Source: a virus. Taken from it: a DNA stretch of 47,095 nt. A program made the position numbers and the translations under genes. The stretch covers positions 1 through 47,095 of IMG/VR virus record IMGVR_UViG_3300038629_000541, one strand, 5' to 3'. The notes below the pieces were generated by a model. The model was not told the DNA's origin, made no database searches, and was given only the letters and a program-made list of their open reading frames with translations. Positions 22,278-28,324 of the stretch are shown here, in pieces; position 1 is the stretch's first letter, and every line of letters starts with the position of its first letter.

Positions 22278-23000
22278 TTATGTAGCTGAGTTCATAATAT
22301 TTCCGTAATCTTCAATAACGTCTGCTTTAATTGCATATACATCATCTGCTAACATTTGACATTTTTCTTTAACCCATTGTTCATGCCATACATAGTCACA
22401 GTTAAACTCAATTTCTACATCCAGTCTACCTACTGTTTCTACATCACTTGTAAAAAGATCTTGTGGATCTTTTGTTGGAAAAACACCGTCATATGCTGCA
22501 TAATATTCAACTGTTTTTGCATCAGGTGCTGTTGTCCAGTAATACATTACACACGCATAAGTTGATTTAGTGTAACCACTAAGGTTGTCGCCATCAATTA
22601 GATTAGCTGTTCCAGTACGATAATCTCTTATCATCTTGATCCAACCATGAAAAATATTTAAAAGTGGTATTCCATTGAATTCTAAAAACTTTACAGAAAC
22701 AGAATTTCCATAATCAATGTTTCCTGGAACTGCCCACTTTACTCCACCCAATCCTGTGAACTCAACCTTATTTAGAGTTCCTCCAGGAGGGGTAACGGAT
22801 AAACATGAAGCTGCTAAAATATTTCCAATTTGTTTTGTAGTCATATCATCAGCATATTTCGGAAGACCATTTGGAATACTAGCAAAATATACAAAGTGAT
22901 AACCGCTTAGATATGGATCAGCTACACCAGCAACTGTTCCGCCAAAATTTCTAGTCAATCTATTATTTGGCACTTTAGCAAAAGAATTTTTAATGCCCAT
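22278..23000 (-). CDS. Tail tube protein (T4 gp19-like), 240 aa
   Basis: The beta-rich sequence contains LSGYHFVYFASIPNGL (about 31-46) and PPGGTLNKVEFTGLGGVKWAVPG (95-114 region). These match the tube protein fold of T4 gp19 relatives, in which a 'P-P-x-(G)-x-L-(x)-K-V' strand and a G-x-G-G loop precede the conserved ring-forming barrel. An aromatic-rich C-terminal helix (VWHEQWVKEKCQML) follows. It has a very good ribosome site (GGAGGTAT). It is the second gene after a late promoter motif, suiting a highly expressed structural protein. The hairpin after its stop may protect its mRNA. Confidence 0.82.
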   Translation of the reverse strand: MGIKNSFAKVPNNRLTRNFGGTVAGVADPYLSGYHFVYFASIPNGLPKYADDMTTKQIGNILAASCLSVTPPGGTLNKVEFTGLGGVKWAVPGNIDYGNSVSVKFLEFNGIPLLNIFHGWIKMIRDYRTGTANLIDGDNLSGYTKSTYACVMYYWTTAPDAKTVEYYAAYDGVFPTKDPQDLFTSDVETVGRLDVEIEFNCDYVWHEQWVKEKCQMLADDVYAIKADVIEDYGNIMNSAT

Positions 23001-23017
23001 CTTATAATACCTCCAAA

Positions 23018-23509
23018 TTAAACTTTCATTCTCGATCTAATAATTTTCTTAACAGAATCCCAATCTCCATTCGTTATTGTAATTGCTTTATCGTCAATAT
23101 AAAATTTAGCTCCTAATTTTTCTGAAGTAATTCTATTAAAATAAATTTCGTGATCAGTTAAATAATTTTCAATATTTTTTATCTCTTTTAAATGATCTCC
23201 ACCTATTTCTTCCGCATTTTCTTTTGAAGCACGAGTTGTGAATATAACAATTTCAAAACCCATTCCTTTTAACCAGTCTATTGCTTCTTTAGCTCCATCA
23301 AATGGTTCCTCATAAAGTGATCCATCTTGATAACCCTTTGAATATTTAAATATTGTATTATCAAAGTCTATCATTACTCTTTGACTGGCATTAGAATTTA
23401 TTACCTTTTCTTCATAGTATTTAATAACTTTCTTTTTTTTAGTAGCGAATCCCATAGGAAAAACGGACTCACTATTTTGTATTTTTTTCAGATAATCTCT
23501 AATTTTCAT
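23018..23509 (-). CDS. HAD-superfamily hydrolase, 163 aa
   Basis: All four HAD motifs are visible: MIDFDNTI with nucleophile D48 and D50, the Thr motif FTTRAS (90-95), a motif III Lys (K131), and YIDDKA with D139 and D140. The core is small, so any cap is minimal. This size fits phage HAD phosphatases acting on nucleotides, sugars or polynucleotide ends; the substrate is not evident. It is the first gene after late promoter site 6, and shares the transcript with the tail tube. Confidence 0.9.
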   Translation of the reverse strand: MKIRDYLKKIQNSESVFPMGFATKKKKVIKYYEEKVINSNASQRVMIDFDNTIFKYSKGYQDGSLYEEPFDGAKEAIDWLKGMGFEIVIFTTRASKENAEEIGGDHLKEIKNIENYLTDHEIYFNRITSEKLGAKFYIDDKAITITNGDWDSVKKIIRSRMKV

Positions 23510-23666: not shown

Positions 23667-23918
23667 ATGGATGATATTAAAATTTCAGAAGAAAAAATCA
23701 AGTATGTAATTAAAACATTAAATGAACAGTGGGATAAAAATGATCCACTTATTAGAACTGTTGCAACAATAATTGGCGTTATAACACTATTATTTATACC
23801 TATTTTATTTTCGTTGATTATAATTTTATTATTTGGAGGGCAAAGAGTTCTTTATCATATGATGGAATTAAAGAAGAAGGAATCTTATGATGAAGTCGAT
23901 GAAACAAATAACACATAA
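23667..23918 (+). CDS. Small single-span membrane protein, 83 aa
   Basis: A charged N-terminal helix of about 30 residues is followed by one strong hydrophobic segment (about 31-57), then a basic/acidic tail after RVLYHMMELKKK. No signal peptidase site is seen, so it is likely an inner membrane protein. The ATG at 23667 has GGGAGGAG eight bases upstream; the longer frame upstream lacks a better start. It leads the radical SAM island and its end overlaps that gene by 32 bases. The function is unknown; early phage membrane proteins often act in host takeover or superinfection exclusion. Confidence 0.75.
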   Translation: MDDIKISEEKIKYVIKTLNEQWDKNDPLIRTVATIIGVITLLFIPILFSLIIILLFGGQRVLYHMMELKKKESYDEVDETNNT

Positions 23919-24924
23919 AATTAATGATTACTCAAATATTACATACTATTATAATAAACATTTTAAGACAGATCGATATGAAGTATTTTATAATTCTGAA
24001 ATTGGACTTCAAATATTAAGAGGAATAAACGGTCTGGAAGATCCTATTGTTTTAGATTATCCCATACTATTAGACATTGGAATTATGGGTCACTGTAAAA
24101 ATAAATGTGCTATTTGCTATCAAAGTAATGAAATAGAAAAACACATGTCTCTTAAAAATTTTAAATTGATAATGGATCAAACAAAGTATCGAGTTAATGA
24201 AGCTGCACTGGGTGGTAGAGGAGATCCAAATCATCATCCCCAATTTAAAGACATTGTTGAATATGCCATCAAACGTGATGTTGTTCCCACTTATACAACA
24301 AGTGGTTTTAATCTCACAGATGAACAGATAGAAATTTCAAAGATGTGTGGTGCAGTTGCTGTAAGCGATTATGGACAAGACTATACATATAACGCAATTA
24401 AAAGATTTCAAGAAGCAAATATAAGAACAAATATTCATCTTGTATTTACATCTGCTTCATATGAGAAATGTATTGTAATACTCCACGGTCACAATCCTTG
24501 GAAACGTAAAATAAATTTAGATAAAATAAATGCAGTTATTTTTTTATTATTCAAACCAGTAGGAAACGCTAAACAGCTATACTCTTTACAACCAAAACCA
24601 TATCATATATCAGTATTTTCAGAATTAATATTAGAAAATAAAGGATTTACAAAAGTTGGTATGGATGCTTGTTTAGTTAATCATATTAAAGAAATTCCAA
24701 AACATATGGAACCAGTATTACAAACCTGTACTGCTGCAAAAGAATCAGCATGTATCAGTCCATCATTAATCATGACTCCTTGTAGTTATATGCGTTCTAA
24801 ATCTCCCTCTTATAAAATTACGCAAACAAAAACAATTGAAAAAATATGGAATACTTCTAATCTTTTTAAATCATTCAGAAGAAAATTAAAGAAACAACCA
24901 AATATTTGTCCAATTGAATTTTAA
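23887..24924 (+). CDS. Radical SAM enzyme with SPASM-like C-terminal domain, 345 aa
   Basis: GHCKNKCAICYQ (69-80) is the CX3CX2C [4Fe-4S]-SAM site with C70, C74 and C77. AALGGRGDPN (about 105-114) corresponds to the second SAM-binding motif. A C-terminal Cys cluster (C in LQTCTAAKESACIS, TPCSYM, and the final NICPIEF) suggests a SPASM/twitch auxiliary cluster as in peptide- and protein-modifying enzymes. It is not QueE, whose cluster spacing differs (CX14CX2C). AAGGAAT precedes the ATG. It is followed by a small double-CxxC protein and an NSSSSSF-type protein, which could be partners or substrates. Confidence 0.88.
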   Translation: MMKSMKQITHKINDYSNITYYYNKHFKTDRYEVFYNSEIGLQILRGINGLEDPIVLDYPILLDIGIMGHCKNKCAICYQSNEIEKHMSLKNFKLIMDQTKYRVNEAALGGRGDPNHHPQFKDIVEYAIKRDVVPTYTTSGFNLTDEQIEISKMCGAVAVSDYGQDYTYNAIKRFQEANIRTNIHLVFTSASYEKCIVILHGHNPWKRKINLDKINAVIFLLFKPVGNAKQLYSLQPKPYHISVFSELILENKGFTKVGMDACLVNHIKEIPKHMEPVLQTCTAAKESACISPSLIMTPCSYMRSKSPSYKITQTKTIEKIWNTSNLFKSFRRKLKKQPNICPIEF

Positions 24925-24937
24925 GGGAGGGGATAAA

Positions 24938-25165
24938 ATGTATGATAATTCAATAAATTTAATGTGTCTAAAATGTGTTAAAAATAATCCTAAGATACCC
25001 TCTGATCCCCTTAATTTAGTACATATACCCCCATCACCTTATAAACTATGTCCAAAGTGTAAAGCAAGAATTTCAAATTATAGATATTTTAGTACTCATG
25101 AATTAGAACGATTAGAAATAGATGGAGGTGTTGATAATAAAAGAATAGAAAAATATAGAAGTTAA
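24938..25165 (+). CDS. Small zinc-ribbon protein, 75 aa
   Basis: Two CxxC knuckles, LMCLKCVKN (about 8-16) and LCPKCKARI (about 38-46), make a four-Cys zinc ribbon. The rest is charged. I take the ATG at 24938 because GGGAGGGG lies upstream and it follows the radical SAM stop by 13 bases. Such ribbons bind nucleic acid or proteins. Here it may serve the radical SAM enzyme, but that is inference from position. Confidence 0.75.
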   Translation: MYDNSINLMCLKCVKNNPKIPSDPLNLVHIPPSPYKLCPKCKARISNYRYFSTHELERLEIDGGVDNKRIEKYRS

Positions 25166-25175
25166 AGAGGTTATT

Positions 25176-25730
25176 ATGAGAATAAAGTTTGACTTTGTAA
25201 CCAACTCAAGTTCATCATCATTTATGGTTGGTTGGCCAAATAAAATAATGTATTTAACAGATGTTTTAAAATATATTCACGATAAAAGTAAAGCAAAACA
25301 AGTTTTTAAAGATGCAAAAAATAATCAACATATTATTCAACTTGATCCAAACGATAAAAATCTTATTGAAGATCTTGCTCAACATATAACAGTAGGATCC
25401 ATGGAACATCTTTGTAGTCAACCAAAGTATAGAAAATATTGGAAGGAGAAACTTCATTATAGAAAGTATGAACTCGACTTTAAAGAAAGACATAATATTA
25501 CAGAAGAAGATCTTAATAAAAACTATTACTATAGACATCTACTTTATGAAGAACGTGAAATTTATACATTGACATTGGCAAGACAAATAGCAAGAGATTT
25601 TTGTGAGCAAAATAAATTCTACTATTTATACAAATTTGAATATGGAGATAATGAAGGTGATTTCTTTTCAGATATGGAACACGGAAATACCTTTTCACTT
25701 CTCCCCCATATTAAAATTAATAAACACTAA
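25176..25730 (+). CDS. NSSSSSF-motif protein of unknown function, 184 aa
   Basis: The N-terminus MRIKFDFVTNSSSSSFMV carries a Phe-Val-x-Asn-Ser5-Phe signature that recurs at the very start of uncharacterised bacterial and phage proteins. I know no function for it. The body is helical and rich in Tyr, Lys and His, and the end GDNEGDFFSDMEHGNTF is acidic with His. The motif sits exactly at the start, which could make it a leader or recognition tag. Being ten bases downstream of the zinc ribbon and close to a SPASM-type radical SAM enzyme, it is a candidate substrate. Confidence 0.75.
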   Translation: MRIKFDFVTNSSSSSFMVGWPNKIMYLTDVLKYIHDKSKAKQVFKDAKNNQHIIQLDPNDKNLIEDLAQHITVGSMEHLCSQPKYRKYWKEKLHYRKYELDFKERHNITEEDLNKNYYYRHLLYEEREIYTLTLARQIARDFCEQNKFYYLYKFEYGDNEGDFFSDMEHGNTFSLLPHIKINKH

Positions 25731-25751
25731 AAGGAGTTATTTTCAATTACT

Positions 25752-26264
25752 ATGGGAATACAAATTACTGATGTGATAGCAGTACCGGAAGACTTTATTA
25801 TTGAAGAGTATATGGGTATGAGAGAAAGAATGGGATTTTTTAAATATCCTGATTATATTACGCTCGCCTTAATTGGTAAAACCAATGCGGTTATTAAGAC
25901 AACAGGTTTTCTTAAAGTTAGTTTATTATCACATGCTCAAAATCATATGCAGGAAAGACAAGCAATAGCATCAGCTGCTGCATACTTAATGTGTCTAGAC
26001 GAGTTGGGATTAATAGTTACCTCATTTAAAAAGTTCAGTTTTAAAGAGTTATTATGGAGTGGCAATAAGGAAGAAGCATTTGATGTATTTATGAAAGAAG
26101 TTGTACAAGAATCATCTGGCATGGCAGTTCATATGGTTAATATTTTTCCCTTAATTCAGAATAGTAAATTTTATTTAGAAAGTGCTATTCAAAATCTTTT
26201 GAGACTAGATGAACTAGAATTGGATAGACAAGAAACTCTAGCATCAATAGATCGAATTGATTAA
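25752..26264 (+). CDS. Hypothetical protein, 170 aa, last gene of the island
   Basis: A helical, soluble protein with no recognisable motif. The central stretch ERQAIASAAAYLMCLDELGL is an amphipathic helix. AAAGGAG lies 15 bases before the ATG, longer than usual. No alternative start fits better, so initiation may be weak. A strong two-way terminator follows. Confidence 0.7.
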   Translation: MGIQITDVIAVPEDFIIEEYMGMRERMGFFKYPDYITLALIGKTNAVIKTTGFLKVSLLSHAQNHMQERQAIASAAAYLMCLDELGLIVTSFKKFSFKELLWSGNKEEAFDVFMKEVVQESSGMAVHMVNIFPLIQNSKFYLESAIQNLLRLDELELDRQETLASIDRID

Positions 26265-26274
26265 ACTACCAACG

Positions 26275-26320
26275 AAAAAAAGACCGACTAACAATTGATT
26301 AATTAGTCGGTCTTTTTTTT
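26275..26320. terminator. Bidirectional intrinsic terminator between the radical SAM island and the sheath gene
   Basis: AAAAAAAGACCGACTAA (26275-26291) pairs with TTAGTCGGTCTTTTTTTT (26303-26320) around an 11-base loop. The T-run on + and the A-run that becomes T on - let it stop both the + island and the - strand sheath transcript, whose gene ends ten bases further on. Confidence 0.93.
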
Positions 26321-26329
26321 GTCTAAATT

Positions 26330-28324
26330 TTATATAATAAAAAAGTTCAACTCAATTTTCTCAACCACTCTGGTTGGTTGCAGAATGATATTAACATGGA
26401 AGGTCTTTGTTTTCTTCTCATAATCGGTTGCACCAACCTCAATAGAATAAGAATCAAGACCTCTTTTGTTCTTAATAACTTCCAAGAACTCTGTTATTGC
26501 TCCACCTACTTCACCCCATGTAATAGGATCGTTTTGTTCAAAGATAAAGAAACGACAGAATTGTTCAAGAGCTCTCTTACAATACAGAACAAGTCTTACA
26601 ATATTAACATCCTGTAATGCACTCGCTTTAGCTTGAGATGTCAATTGTCCCCAAACGACATAACCAGCTGAAAATTGAACAATTGGATTTAGTTGTTTTA
26701 GATACATCTGATCTCTTTGCCCAAGTCTTGGATTATATCTAAGCTCTTTAATACTATCAATTGCACCTCTAGTGAATCCAGCTGCTGCAAACCAAAGTTC
26801 AGCAATATTATCATTTCTTGGTAGCAGGTATGCCATATGATACATTGGAGAGAACCAAATATCTTGACCTGTAAATGGATCAGAAACTTTATTGTATGAT
26901 TCATATAATGAAACATAATAGTTATTAAATGGATGACTTTCTGTACGTGTTGCCAACGCAGTAGTCACTGATACATTATCACCATTATCAAGAACTCCAA
27001 TACAATCCTTTCTGGTTGTACAAAGTGTACTGATAGCTGTTTTTGTATCTGATGGATAACCAGCATCAAATACAATTGAAAAATAAATGTTCTCAGTATC
27101 CAATACTTCATCTACATAATTTCCAGTATTCGGATTTGTTAAAACACCTGTATATCCTTGTTCAAGTAGAGTTGGTGCTGAATATAGAGCATTAGGTCCT
27201 GAATCATCAGTATTAAGAGCACCATCTATCCACAGTGATCCTTCAGTTCCTTTTCTTAAAGGAACTGGTTCAGATGAACTAAATGCATCAGCAACATTTA
27301 TATATGACTGTCTAACTGTATATGTAACTGTGGAATTAACATCAAATGCTGCTATTTCTTCTGATGTACCATTCCATGACTGTGTAGTAAGACTTCTTTC
27401 TTTAAATACACTGATGGTTTCATTATCGACTCCTGATGAAGCTCCTAACCAACCCCAGATTTCATTTCCTCTACCATCTTTAGCAACTACAACATAATCT
27501 GCTGGAGATGCTGCTGATTCCCAGTCAGAGAAATCTTGTTTAACATCAGTGATAGTTGCTGCAGCAGTAGTATCGACAACAGTTGTAGTTCCAATTTCTT
27601 TATCATACTCTTTAACTGCTAATTCATAACCACTTGTATAATCACCACTTGCAAGTTCCATATCTGCTCTTAAAACAGATGAATATGTTTCAAGAATTGA
27701 TCCAATAAAAATAGACTCACCAGCTGAATCAACAGCTTTAGGTTCAAAAGAAACTTCAAATGATTCAATAATAACATCATCATCATCCGATTGTTTCTCA
27801 TATACATCTAGAACATAAACCCCAGTAAGTGTTGGATTGGAATGCTCTGTAAGTCTTATTCCAAGAGCGTTATAATAATCTCCTCTTCCAATTGGTCTAA
27901 GAAATGCAACTGGTTTAGTATCTCCAACTGCTGCTAGATTTGTTGTAACTTCTGCTATAGAATTTAAACTATCAACATACGTAATTGAAATTGAAGAAGT
28001 TCCATCAGTATTTAATGAACTATCAATTCTAAAGTTAGCATATTGTGCATCATCTGGTAATAGACGAATCCAAAATAATGCACCCGATTCACCTAAGTAA
28101 TTGTACGCTACATATGGACCTTGTCCATAACTCTTTCCAAAATCGGTAATTTTAGGTTCACCAAATTCAGAAATCAATTCTGCTCTTGAACCCAAAAATA
28201 TCAATTCGTTATCTCTTCCCTTATGTGTAAAACCGCAAAGAAAACCAATGGTTGACGGTACAGCTTGCACATAAGCAGAGAGATCAATAATTTTGGTGTA
28301 TACACCCGGAGAAACATTAGCCAT
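26330..28324 (-). CDS. Tail sheath protein, 664 aa
   Basis: The N-terminus MANVSPGVYTKIIDLS is typical of contractile sheath proteins ('P-G-V-Y-x-x-E/I-x-D'), followed by the PSTIGFLCGFTHKG strand region. The C-terminal domain has YKRALEQFCRFFIFE-type helices and WGEVGGAITEFLEVIKNKRG, then the typical FHVNIILQPTRVVEKIEL strand that inserts into the neighbouring subunit. The large middle (about 150-360) is a beta-rich insertion, so it is T4 gp18-sized. The ribosome site GGAGGTTAT is strong. Upstream (28325-28429) there is only a degenerate AGATCTATTATAAAA string, so it is probably fed by the promoter at 29126. Confidence 0.93.
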   Translation of the reverse strand: MANVSPGVYTKIIDLSAYVQAVPSTIGFLCGFTHKGRDNELIFLGSRAELISEFGEPKITDFGKSYGQGPYVAYNYLGESGALFWIRLLPDDAQYANFRIDSSLNTDGTSSISITYVDSLNSIAEVTTNLAAVGDTKPVAFLRPIGRGDYYNALGIRLTEHSNPTLTGVYVLDVYEKQSDDDDVIIESFEVSFEPKAVDSAGESIFIGSILETYSSVLRADMELASGDYTSGYELAVKEYDKEIGTTTVVDTTAAATITDVKQDFSDWESAASPADYVVVAKDGRGNEIWGWLGASSGVDNETISVFKERSLTTQSWNGTSEEIAAFDVNSTVTYTVRQSYINVADAFSSSEPVPLRKGTEGSLWIDGALNTDDSGPNALYSAPTLLEQGYTGVLTNPNTGNYVDEVLDTENIYFSIVFDAGYPSDTKTAISTLCTTRKDCIGVLDNGDNVSVTTALATRTESHPFNNYYVSLYESYNKVSDPFTGQDIWFSPMYHMAYLLPRNDNIAELWFAAAGFTRGAIDSIKELRYNPRLGQRDQMYLKQLNPIVQFSAGYVVWGQLTSQAKASALQDVNIVRLVLYCKRALEQFCRFFIFEQNDPITWGEVGGAITEFLEVIKNKRGLDSYSIEVGATDYEKKTKTFHVNIILQPTRVVEKIELNFFII

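Follow-up and report, generated by a model that had tools for sequence, protein, structure and literature searches.

Genes and features of the locus

The window, that is, the whole stretch of DNA analysed here, is a complete 47,095-base IMG/VR virus fragment. The virus is a phage with a contractile tail that encodes a beta-type subunit of RNA polymerase, and the window is therefore probably part of a jumbo phage that possesses its own RNA polymerase. Embedded in it is a compact island of plus-strand genes whose neighbours all lie on the minus strand, with the tail tube and HAD-type genes on one side and the tail sheath gene on the other (Table 1). The initial annotation had described five compact genes behind a promoter class of their own and ahead of a two-way terminator. 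All five open reading frames were confirmed in their setting between minus-strand tail genes, and so was the terminator; the promoter class was not, since sigma-70-like sites (17, as compared with 21.0 in shuffled sequences) show no enrichment. An Rfam search of the window gave no match. The island occupies the same genomic slot in about 30 related phage loci. The HAD-type protein is a regular neighbour of the tail tube gene and of the island in related phages.

Table 1. Features of the radical SAM island and its surroundings (positions in the window, nt)
Feature	Position	Strand	Basis or remarks
RNA polymerase beta-subunit-like protein	20–2560
Tail tube gene	22278–23000	−
HAD-type gene (phrog_1238)	23018–23509	−
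One-span membrane protein, 83 aa	23667–23918	+	ORF; homologues directly upstream of the radical SAM gene in L004, L006–L010, L023, L024
Radical SAM enzyme with shortened SPASM (twitch-like) region, 345 aa	23887–24924	+	Pfam Radical_SAM; phrog_7293; AF2 model; SuiB fold
Cys4 zinc-ribbon-like protein, 75 aa	24938–25165	+	Two CxxC pairs
Tag-bearing protein (starts MRIKFDFVTNSSSSSFMVGW), 184 aa, proposed substrate	25176–25730	+	Largest body cluster; phrog_7397
N-terminal tag MRIKFDFVTNSSSSSFMV	25176–25229	+	Profile E = 3.1e-13 in the window
170-aa partner protein, function unassigned	25752–26264	+	Homologues directly 3′ of the tag gene in relatives
Two-way intrinsic terminator	26272–26322	.	20-nt arms 26272–26291/26303–26322, 95% complementary; A and T runs
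Tail sheath gene	26330–28324	−

The one-span protein is conserved only inside the phage clade of the window. Homologues of the zinc ribbon, which had been suggested as a partner of the enzyme, were found only in the closest relatives (L005, L008, L009, L021, L025 and L026), so that it is not a general partner. A more regular and better conserved neighbour than the zinc ribbon is the 170-aa protein: most phages of the clade to which the window belongs have a homologue immediately behind the tag gene (loci with a homologue: L005, L010, L013, L014, L024, L050, L052, L102, L120, L126, L132, L140, L142 and L145). A resemblance seen by eye between this protein and a 135-aa protein of the bacterial loci described below (VPEDF.. 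and APEGL..) was discarded after profile comparison (probability 0.6%).

The radical SAM enzyme

The window enzyme scores 29.7 bits against the Pfam Radical_SAM model PF04055 (cut-off 29.5; E = 8.9e-7) and matches phrog_7293 at 7.3e-20. It contains the cluster motif CX3CX2C (C70-x3-C74-x2-C77) as well as later conserved cysteines at positions 262, 281, 299 and 341. The SPASM region of the window enzyme is shortened and stays below the Pfam cut-off (17.8 vs 21.5 bits), because the phage clade to which it belongs has lost the last SPASM cysteines. The full cysteine set, including CxGGC...C, is absent from the window and its clade, where the proteins end after the CP at 341–342, and present in bacterial relatives; the SPASM score lies above the cut-off in the bacterial relatives L176, L225, L210 and L234. 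In clostridial enzymes (L225:863-1966, L234:2661-3731, L188 and L220), an unusual motif CX7CX6C (GHCVHGASGLCIKSGVQCYQ) stands in place of CX3CX2C. The match to the enzyme runs through one stop codon (TAA, TAG) in L156 and in L172, whose radical SAM genes are in G050 and G048.

With an AF2 model of the enzyme (pLDDT 91), 79 PDB chains were retrieved at E ≤ 0.001, and radical SAM enzymes occupy the top ranks. The nearest solved fold is that of SuiB (1.1e-13), and the fold neighbours further include SkfB, PqqE, DesII, the sactipeptide maturase 5why, BlsE, viperin, TigE, EpeE and anSME. Sequence comparison likewise puts SuiB, SkfB and PqqE first among solved enzymes, and peptide maturases lead the ranking by both measures. 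Viperin, DesII and BlsE act on nucleotides or sugars, and their presence among the structural neighbours counts against a reading in terms of peptides only. The initial annotation had named a grouping with known nucleotide or cofactor enzymes as a refutation of its reading; with SuiB, SkfB and PqqE nearest and peptide maturases ahead, this refutation did not occur. No NCBIfam equivalog reaches its cut-off for the enzyme, which falls into no named maturase family of that collection.

An N-terminal tag shared by many proteins

The protein encoded after the zinc ribbon had been credited with a fixed N-terminal F-V-T-N-S5-F tag, and MRIKFDFVTNSSSSSFMV is indeed the start of the 184-aa protein. Beyond that claim, the tag proved to be common to many unrelated proteins. 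Related phages have the same start on a number of distinct proteins, whose genes are frequently lined up behind the radical SAM gene, as with four in L012 and five in L022. Tags were sought with a 20-column profile (A2) and then with a degenerate DNA pattern over viral contigs, bacteria and archaea, and the counts given here are those of the matches listed. With the profile, a single 244-kb phage record gave 10 tags, three others gave 6, 5 and 5, and Cronobacter phage GAP161 gave 2; the DNA pattern matched many more viral contigs and many bacteria and archaea among the matches listed. A tblastn search with the window tag protein returned no match in 50,697 phages, probably owing to low-complexity masking and divergent bodies, a negative that alone would have spoken wrongly against the pair, while whole-record profile searches did find tags; a search among close relatives of the tag protein yielded two loci only. 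In L267 (ten tags), L094 (nine) and L211 (seven), tag genes with differing bodies follow one another in long tandem arrays.

The consensus derived from 486 tags among the matches listed is M-K-[IV]-[RK]-x-[DG]-F-V-[TS]-N-S-S-S-[STA]-S-[FY], 16 residues long; the logo is somewhat biased, since one tag per locus was picked by the pattern and the remainder by motif. In these tags, N10, S11 and S12 are invariant, and F7, V/I8, T/S9, S13 and S15 exceed 90%. The serine codons of the tag are a mixture of TCN and AGY (about 45/55), which indicates that selection acts on the peptide and rules out an RNA- or DNA-level element.

Behind the tag, the proteins differ. BLAST comparison of the bodies sorted at least 448 complete phage and cellular tag proteins into 146 clusters, of which 100 have a single member; the window protein belongs to the largest cluster (39 loci among the matches listed). 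The 55 loci with at least three tags contribute 234 tags from 220 body clusters, again among the matches listed. When the tag is included in profile comparisons, the proteins match each other with a median probability of 98; once it is removed, the median drops to 0.2, two groups excepted. Clusters 1/3/6/8 merge at this level, as do clusters 0/11, and the other large body clusters show no relation. The figure of 146 is therefore an upper bound, but the modular make-up of the tag proteins holds. Judged by its sequence, the tag is a portable module and not a feature of one family. Known domains are rare among the bodies (LRR, BRCT). The tag proteins tested fall under no Pfam or NCBIfam model. 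The window tag protein matches phrog_7397 over its full length (2.4e-7). The same family is hit by 98 of 145 tag proteins whose bodies differ, which evidently reflects the common tag and makes phrog_7397 an annotation trap.

In the structural model of the window tag protein, residues 1–10 are disordered and the body is well folded from about residue 13 (pLDDT 91); a Foldseek search with this model gave no match in the PDB or the viral library. The disorder of residues 1–10 suggests that the tag can reach an active site. Residues S11–S16 run into a strand of the body sheet in the model, and part of the tag may therefore be structural in the window protein.

A shared start of this kind might also be a leader peptide on which the radical SAM enzyme docks in order to modify the bodies. 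ProcM acts in this manner, a single enzyme modifying many prochlorosin substrates that have a common leader and differing cores, and the shared N-terminus, diverse remainder and tandem paralogues of the tag proteins are reminiscent of these precursors. The prochlorosin system differs in its lanthipeptide chemistry, long leaders and short variable cores. The tag proteins, whose median length is 135 aa among the matches listed and whose window member has a folded body, are not short precursors made up of leader and core like those of classical RiPPs. Furthermore, the bodies share neither a residue nor a motif, no cleavage motif was seen, and leaders are usually much less invariant than the tag. 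We consider a leader function unlikely.

Co-occurrence of tag and enzyme

The pairing of the enzyme with the tag is far from chance. When cellular loci were picked by the tag alone, a radical SAM gene was present on the retrieved stretch in 96 of 115 among the matches listed, so that the genome-neighbourhood search proposed at the outset was positive. In all 96, it lies on the strand of the tag gene, in 86 at a distance of 50 nt or less, with a median overlap of 4 nt (matches listed). Ten of 12 checked loci without a local radical SAM gene have one elsewhere in the genome, two of these partial. Among the tag-bearing viral contigs listed as matches, the enzyme was detected (E < 1e-40) in 33 of 47 of at least 40 kb, in 22 of 26 of at least 100 kb and in 14 of 14 of at least 165 kb. 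By comparison, none of 42 random viral contigs had more than a marginal radical SAM match and none of 18 had a tag, although the random contigs were shorter on average, which weakens this control.

Other samples gave the same picture. Of ten reference phages, RB43 alone has tags and RB43 alone has the enzyme, the other nine having neither. Among 150 genomes of the Acetatifactor muris family, tags occur in 3, all of them within the 4 that bear the radical SAM gene and always adjacent to it (hypergeometric p 7e-6). A search of 50,697 phage records found the tag protein of the RB16/RB43 type in 175 and the radical SAM enzyme in 174, with near-identical host lists; here, the two genes lie about 20 kb apart and the carriers are close kin of the same genera. 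Taken across the matches listed, the linkage extends over phages, Firmicutes, Bacteroidota, Proteobacteria, Campylobacterota and archaea, and the tag-first searches thereby answer the objection, raised in the initial annotation, that the pair might not recur elsewhere.

Tags without the enzyme were met in 13 contigs of 54–162 kb, even with a broader profile, and in two Erysipelotrichaceae MAGs, all of which are fragments or drafts. Conversely, the close relatives L006–L009 and L011 have the enzyme and no tag on the fragment. A decayed tag gene (ENKTDFVTNSSSTL*) lies directly behind the radical SAM gene in L017:4660-5000, L018:3180-3520 and L019:5985-6320. Two contigs, L210 and L211, are binned as Lokiarchaeota and Kaiserbacteria. 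The former also carries a tail sheath gene and is therefore likely to be phage DNA in that bin; L211, the locus with seven tandem tags, may be phage DNA too.

The tag exists in two flavours, DFVT and GFVS, in which residues 6 and 9 are coupled (DT 235, GS 205, DS 16 and GT 4 among the matches listed). The flavour is nearly uniform inside one genome across unrelated bodies and changes only 3 times on the enzyme tree, as compared with a mean of 20.7 after shuffling. Tag presence and flavour follow the enzyme, and the match in flavour can partly reflect shared ancestry. These observations bear on the view that enzyme and tag have no functional link, the tag being the common N-terminal strand of one superfamily that travels with the radical SAM gene. 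The merging of clusters 1/3/6/8 and 0/11 would be in line with this, as would the modelled joining of the second half of the tag to the body sheet. Against it, the other large body clusters are unrelated, the linkage recurs in all the groups of phages, bacteria and archaea listed above and the flavour goes with the enzyme; we regard this explanation as very improbable.

Bacterial loci beside STAND NTPases

In 35 of 116 cellular loci among the matches listed, 135-aa proteins and STAND NTPases of about 900 aa are encoded upstream of the pair (as in L176, L179, L189, L202, L206, L214, L216, L230 and L246). The NTPases match Avs2 models of PADLOC, with E-values down to 9.4e-32, the matches being partial. 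Their front modules are swapped between loci (SMEK and PNP_UDP according to Pfam, a trypsin-like module recognized by eye, and FFSWQSD), and in one locus there is also an MBL hydrolase resembling LmuA/Avs1a. This bacterial branch looks like a candidate anti-phage system, a locus of the defence type built on the pair. The window has no STAND-NTPase locus of this type. Although the NTPases recall the Avs2/AVAST proteins, no such radical SAM/tag pair was described in the papers found.

The proximity of defence-type NTPases would also suit an enzyme that makes a small molecule, as viperins do, or another product of its own, in which case the tag proteins would bind the enzyme or its product as regulators, sensors or effectors. 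The weak neighbours of the enzyme do include viperin folds and pVip profiles. However, peptide maturases outrank the viperins by fold and by sequence, the viperin model NF038283 gives 20.5 bits against a cut-off of 180, and catalysis on the tag better accounts for its presence on dozens of unrelated bodies and its match in flavour to the enzyme. A small-molecule role is, in our judgement, improbable.

A proposed tagging system

We consider it likely that the enzyme and the tag form a widespread two-part system, in which a single SPASM/twitch-type radical SAM enzyme modifies a 16-residue N-terminal tag on every protein that bears it, the window representing the phage branch. The enzyme would recognize MK[IV][RK]x[DG]FV[TS]NSSSSSF at the start of a protein and introduce the same modification into the tag whatever body follows. 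That the enzyme acts on the tag itself and not on the bodies is what we infer from the sequences: the tag is modular and conserved as a peptide, its presence and flavour are matched to the enzyme, and the nearest folds to the enzyme are those of peptide maturases. The initial suggestion that the NSSSSSF protein is a possible substrate of a peptide- or protein-modifying SPASM-type enzyme accordingly gains support from the co-occurrence and from the fold kinship with SuiB, SkfB and PqqE.

Peptide-modifying radical SAM enzymes usually have one or a few short precursors as substrates. SuiB (streptide synthase), SkfB and PqqE are the nearest solved structures by fold and sequence, yet the identity is 15–18% for SuiB and SkfB and 10% for PqqE, the SPASM region of the window enzyme is shortened and the tag is without their substrate motifs. 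As to chemistry, the radical SAM/SPASM enzymes XncB, OscB and MscB form the three-residue cyclophanes of triceptides, and MscB joins Phe C4 to Ser C-beta at i,i+2 (PMC11002830). In both cases a SPASM-type enzyme is associated with a short motif, and the tag has the almost invariant F7-V8-[T/S]9, which in nearly all of the 486 tags among the matches listed agrees with the triceptide aromatic-x-[N/D/S/...] motif, a short and weak one. By analogy, the product might be an i,i+2 cross-link of F7 to T/S9 (an F-V-[S/T] cyclophane, −2 Da), a tentative proposal for which Ser/Thr oxidation, an ether cross-link or epimerization would be alternatives. Unlike the triceptide substrates, which are short precursor peptides, the tag is a fixed N-terminus on folded proteins, and the present enzyme lies outside every named NCBIfam maturase family, its cross-link being only proposed.

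Modules of an FxSxx peptide and a radical SAM/SPASM enzyme have been described in NTP-dependent conflict systems (PMC7159879). They resemble the present pair in combining such an enzyme with a small substrate protein in a defence-like locus. They differ from it in that the tag motif here is FV[TS]NSSSSSF and N-terminal, a shared tag on unrelated proteins is undescribed there, and here only one bacterial branch is linked to defence. The action of SPASM-type enzymes on a short motif is thus already known from triceptides and FxSxx modules; what appears to be new is the pairing of one enzyme with a fixed tag at the N-terminus of many folded proteins that are unrelated to one another, and for this pairing we found no description in the open literature searched. 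The initial annotation knew of no phage system of such make-up, and within the same scope none was found.

For small phage proteins produced during infection, the modified tag might be a shared handle or a cap, serving their placement, protease resistance or joining to one partner, or else a binding mark, and the bacterial branch would use the pair inside STAND-NTPase loci of the defence type. It is about an even chance, in our view, that this is a general tagging chemistry on dozens of unrelated folded proteins, a handle in large phages and a part of STAND-NTPase defence loci in bacteria, with the tag on both sides of the conflict. Should the tag be the target, it would represent a route of post-translational tagging that annotation has overlooked. 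It would give testable functions to hundreds of ‘hypothetical’ proteins, probably involve a new radical SAM reaction on a serine-rich motif and link the tagging pair to STAND-NTPase defence. RB43 makes the pair testable now: this E. coli phage (NC_007023) has one radical SAM enzyme, encoded near 92.9–93.8 kb, and two tag proteins, near 68.9 and 72.8 kb, and the tryptic peptide expected from its tag is SGFVSNSSSSSFIVR.
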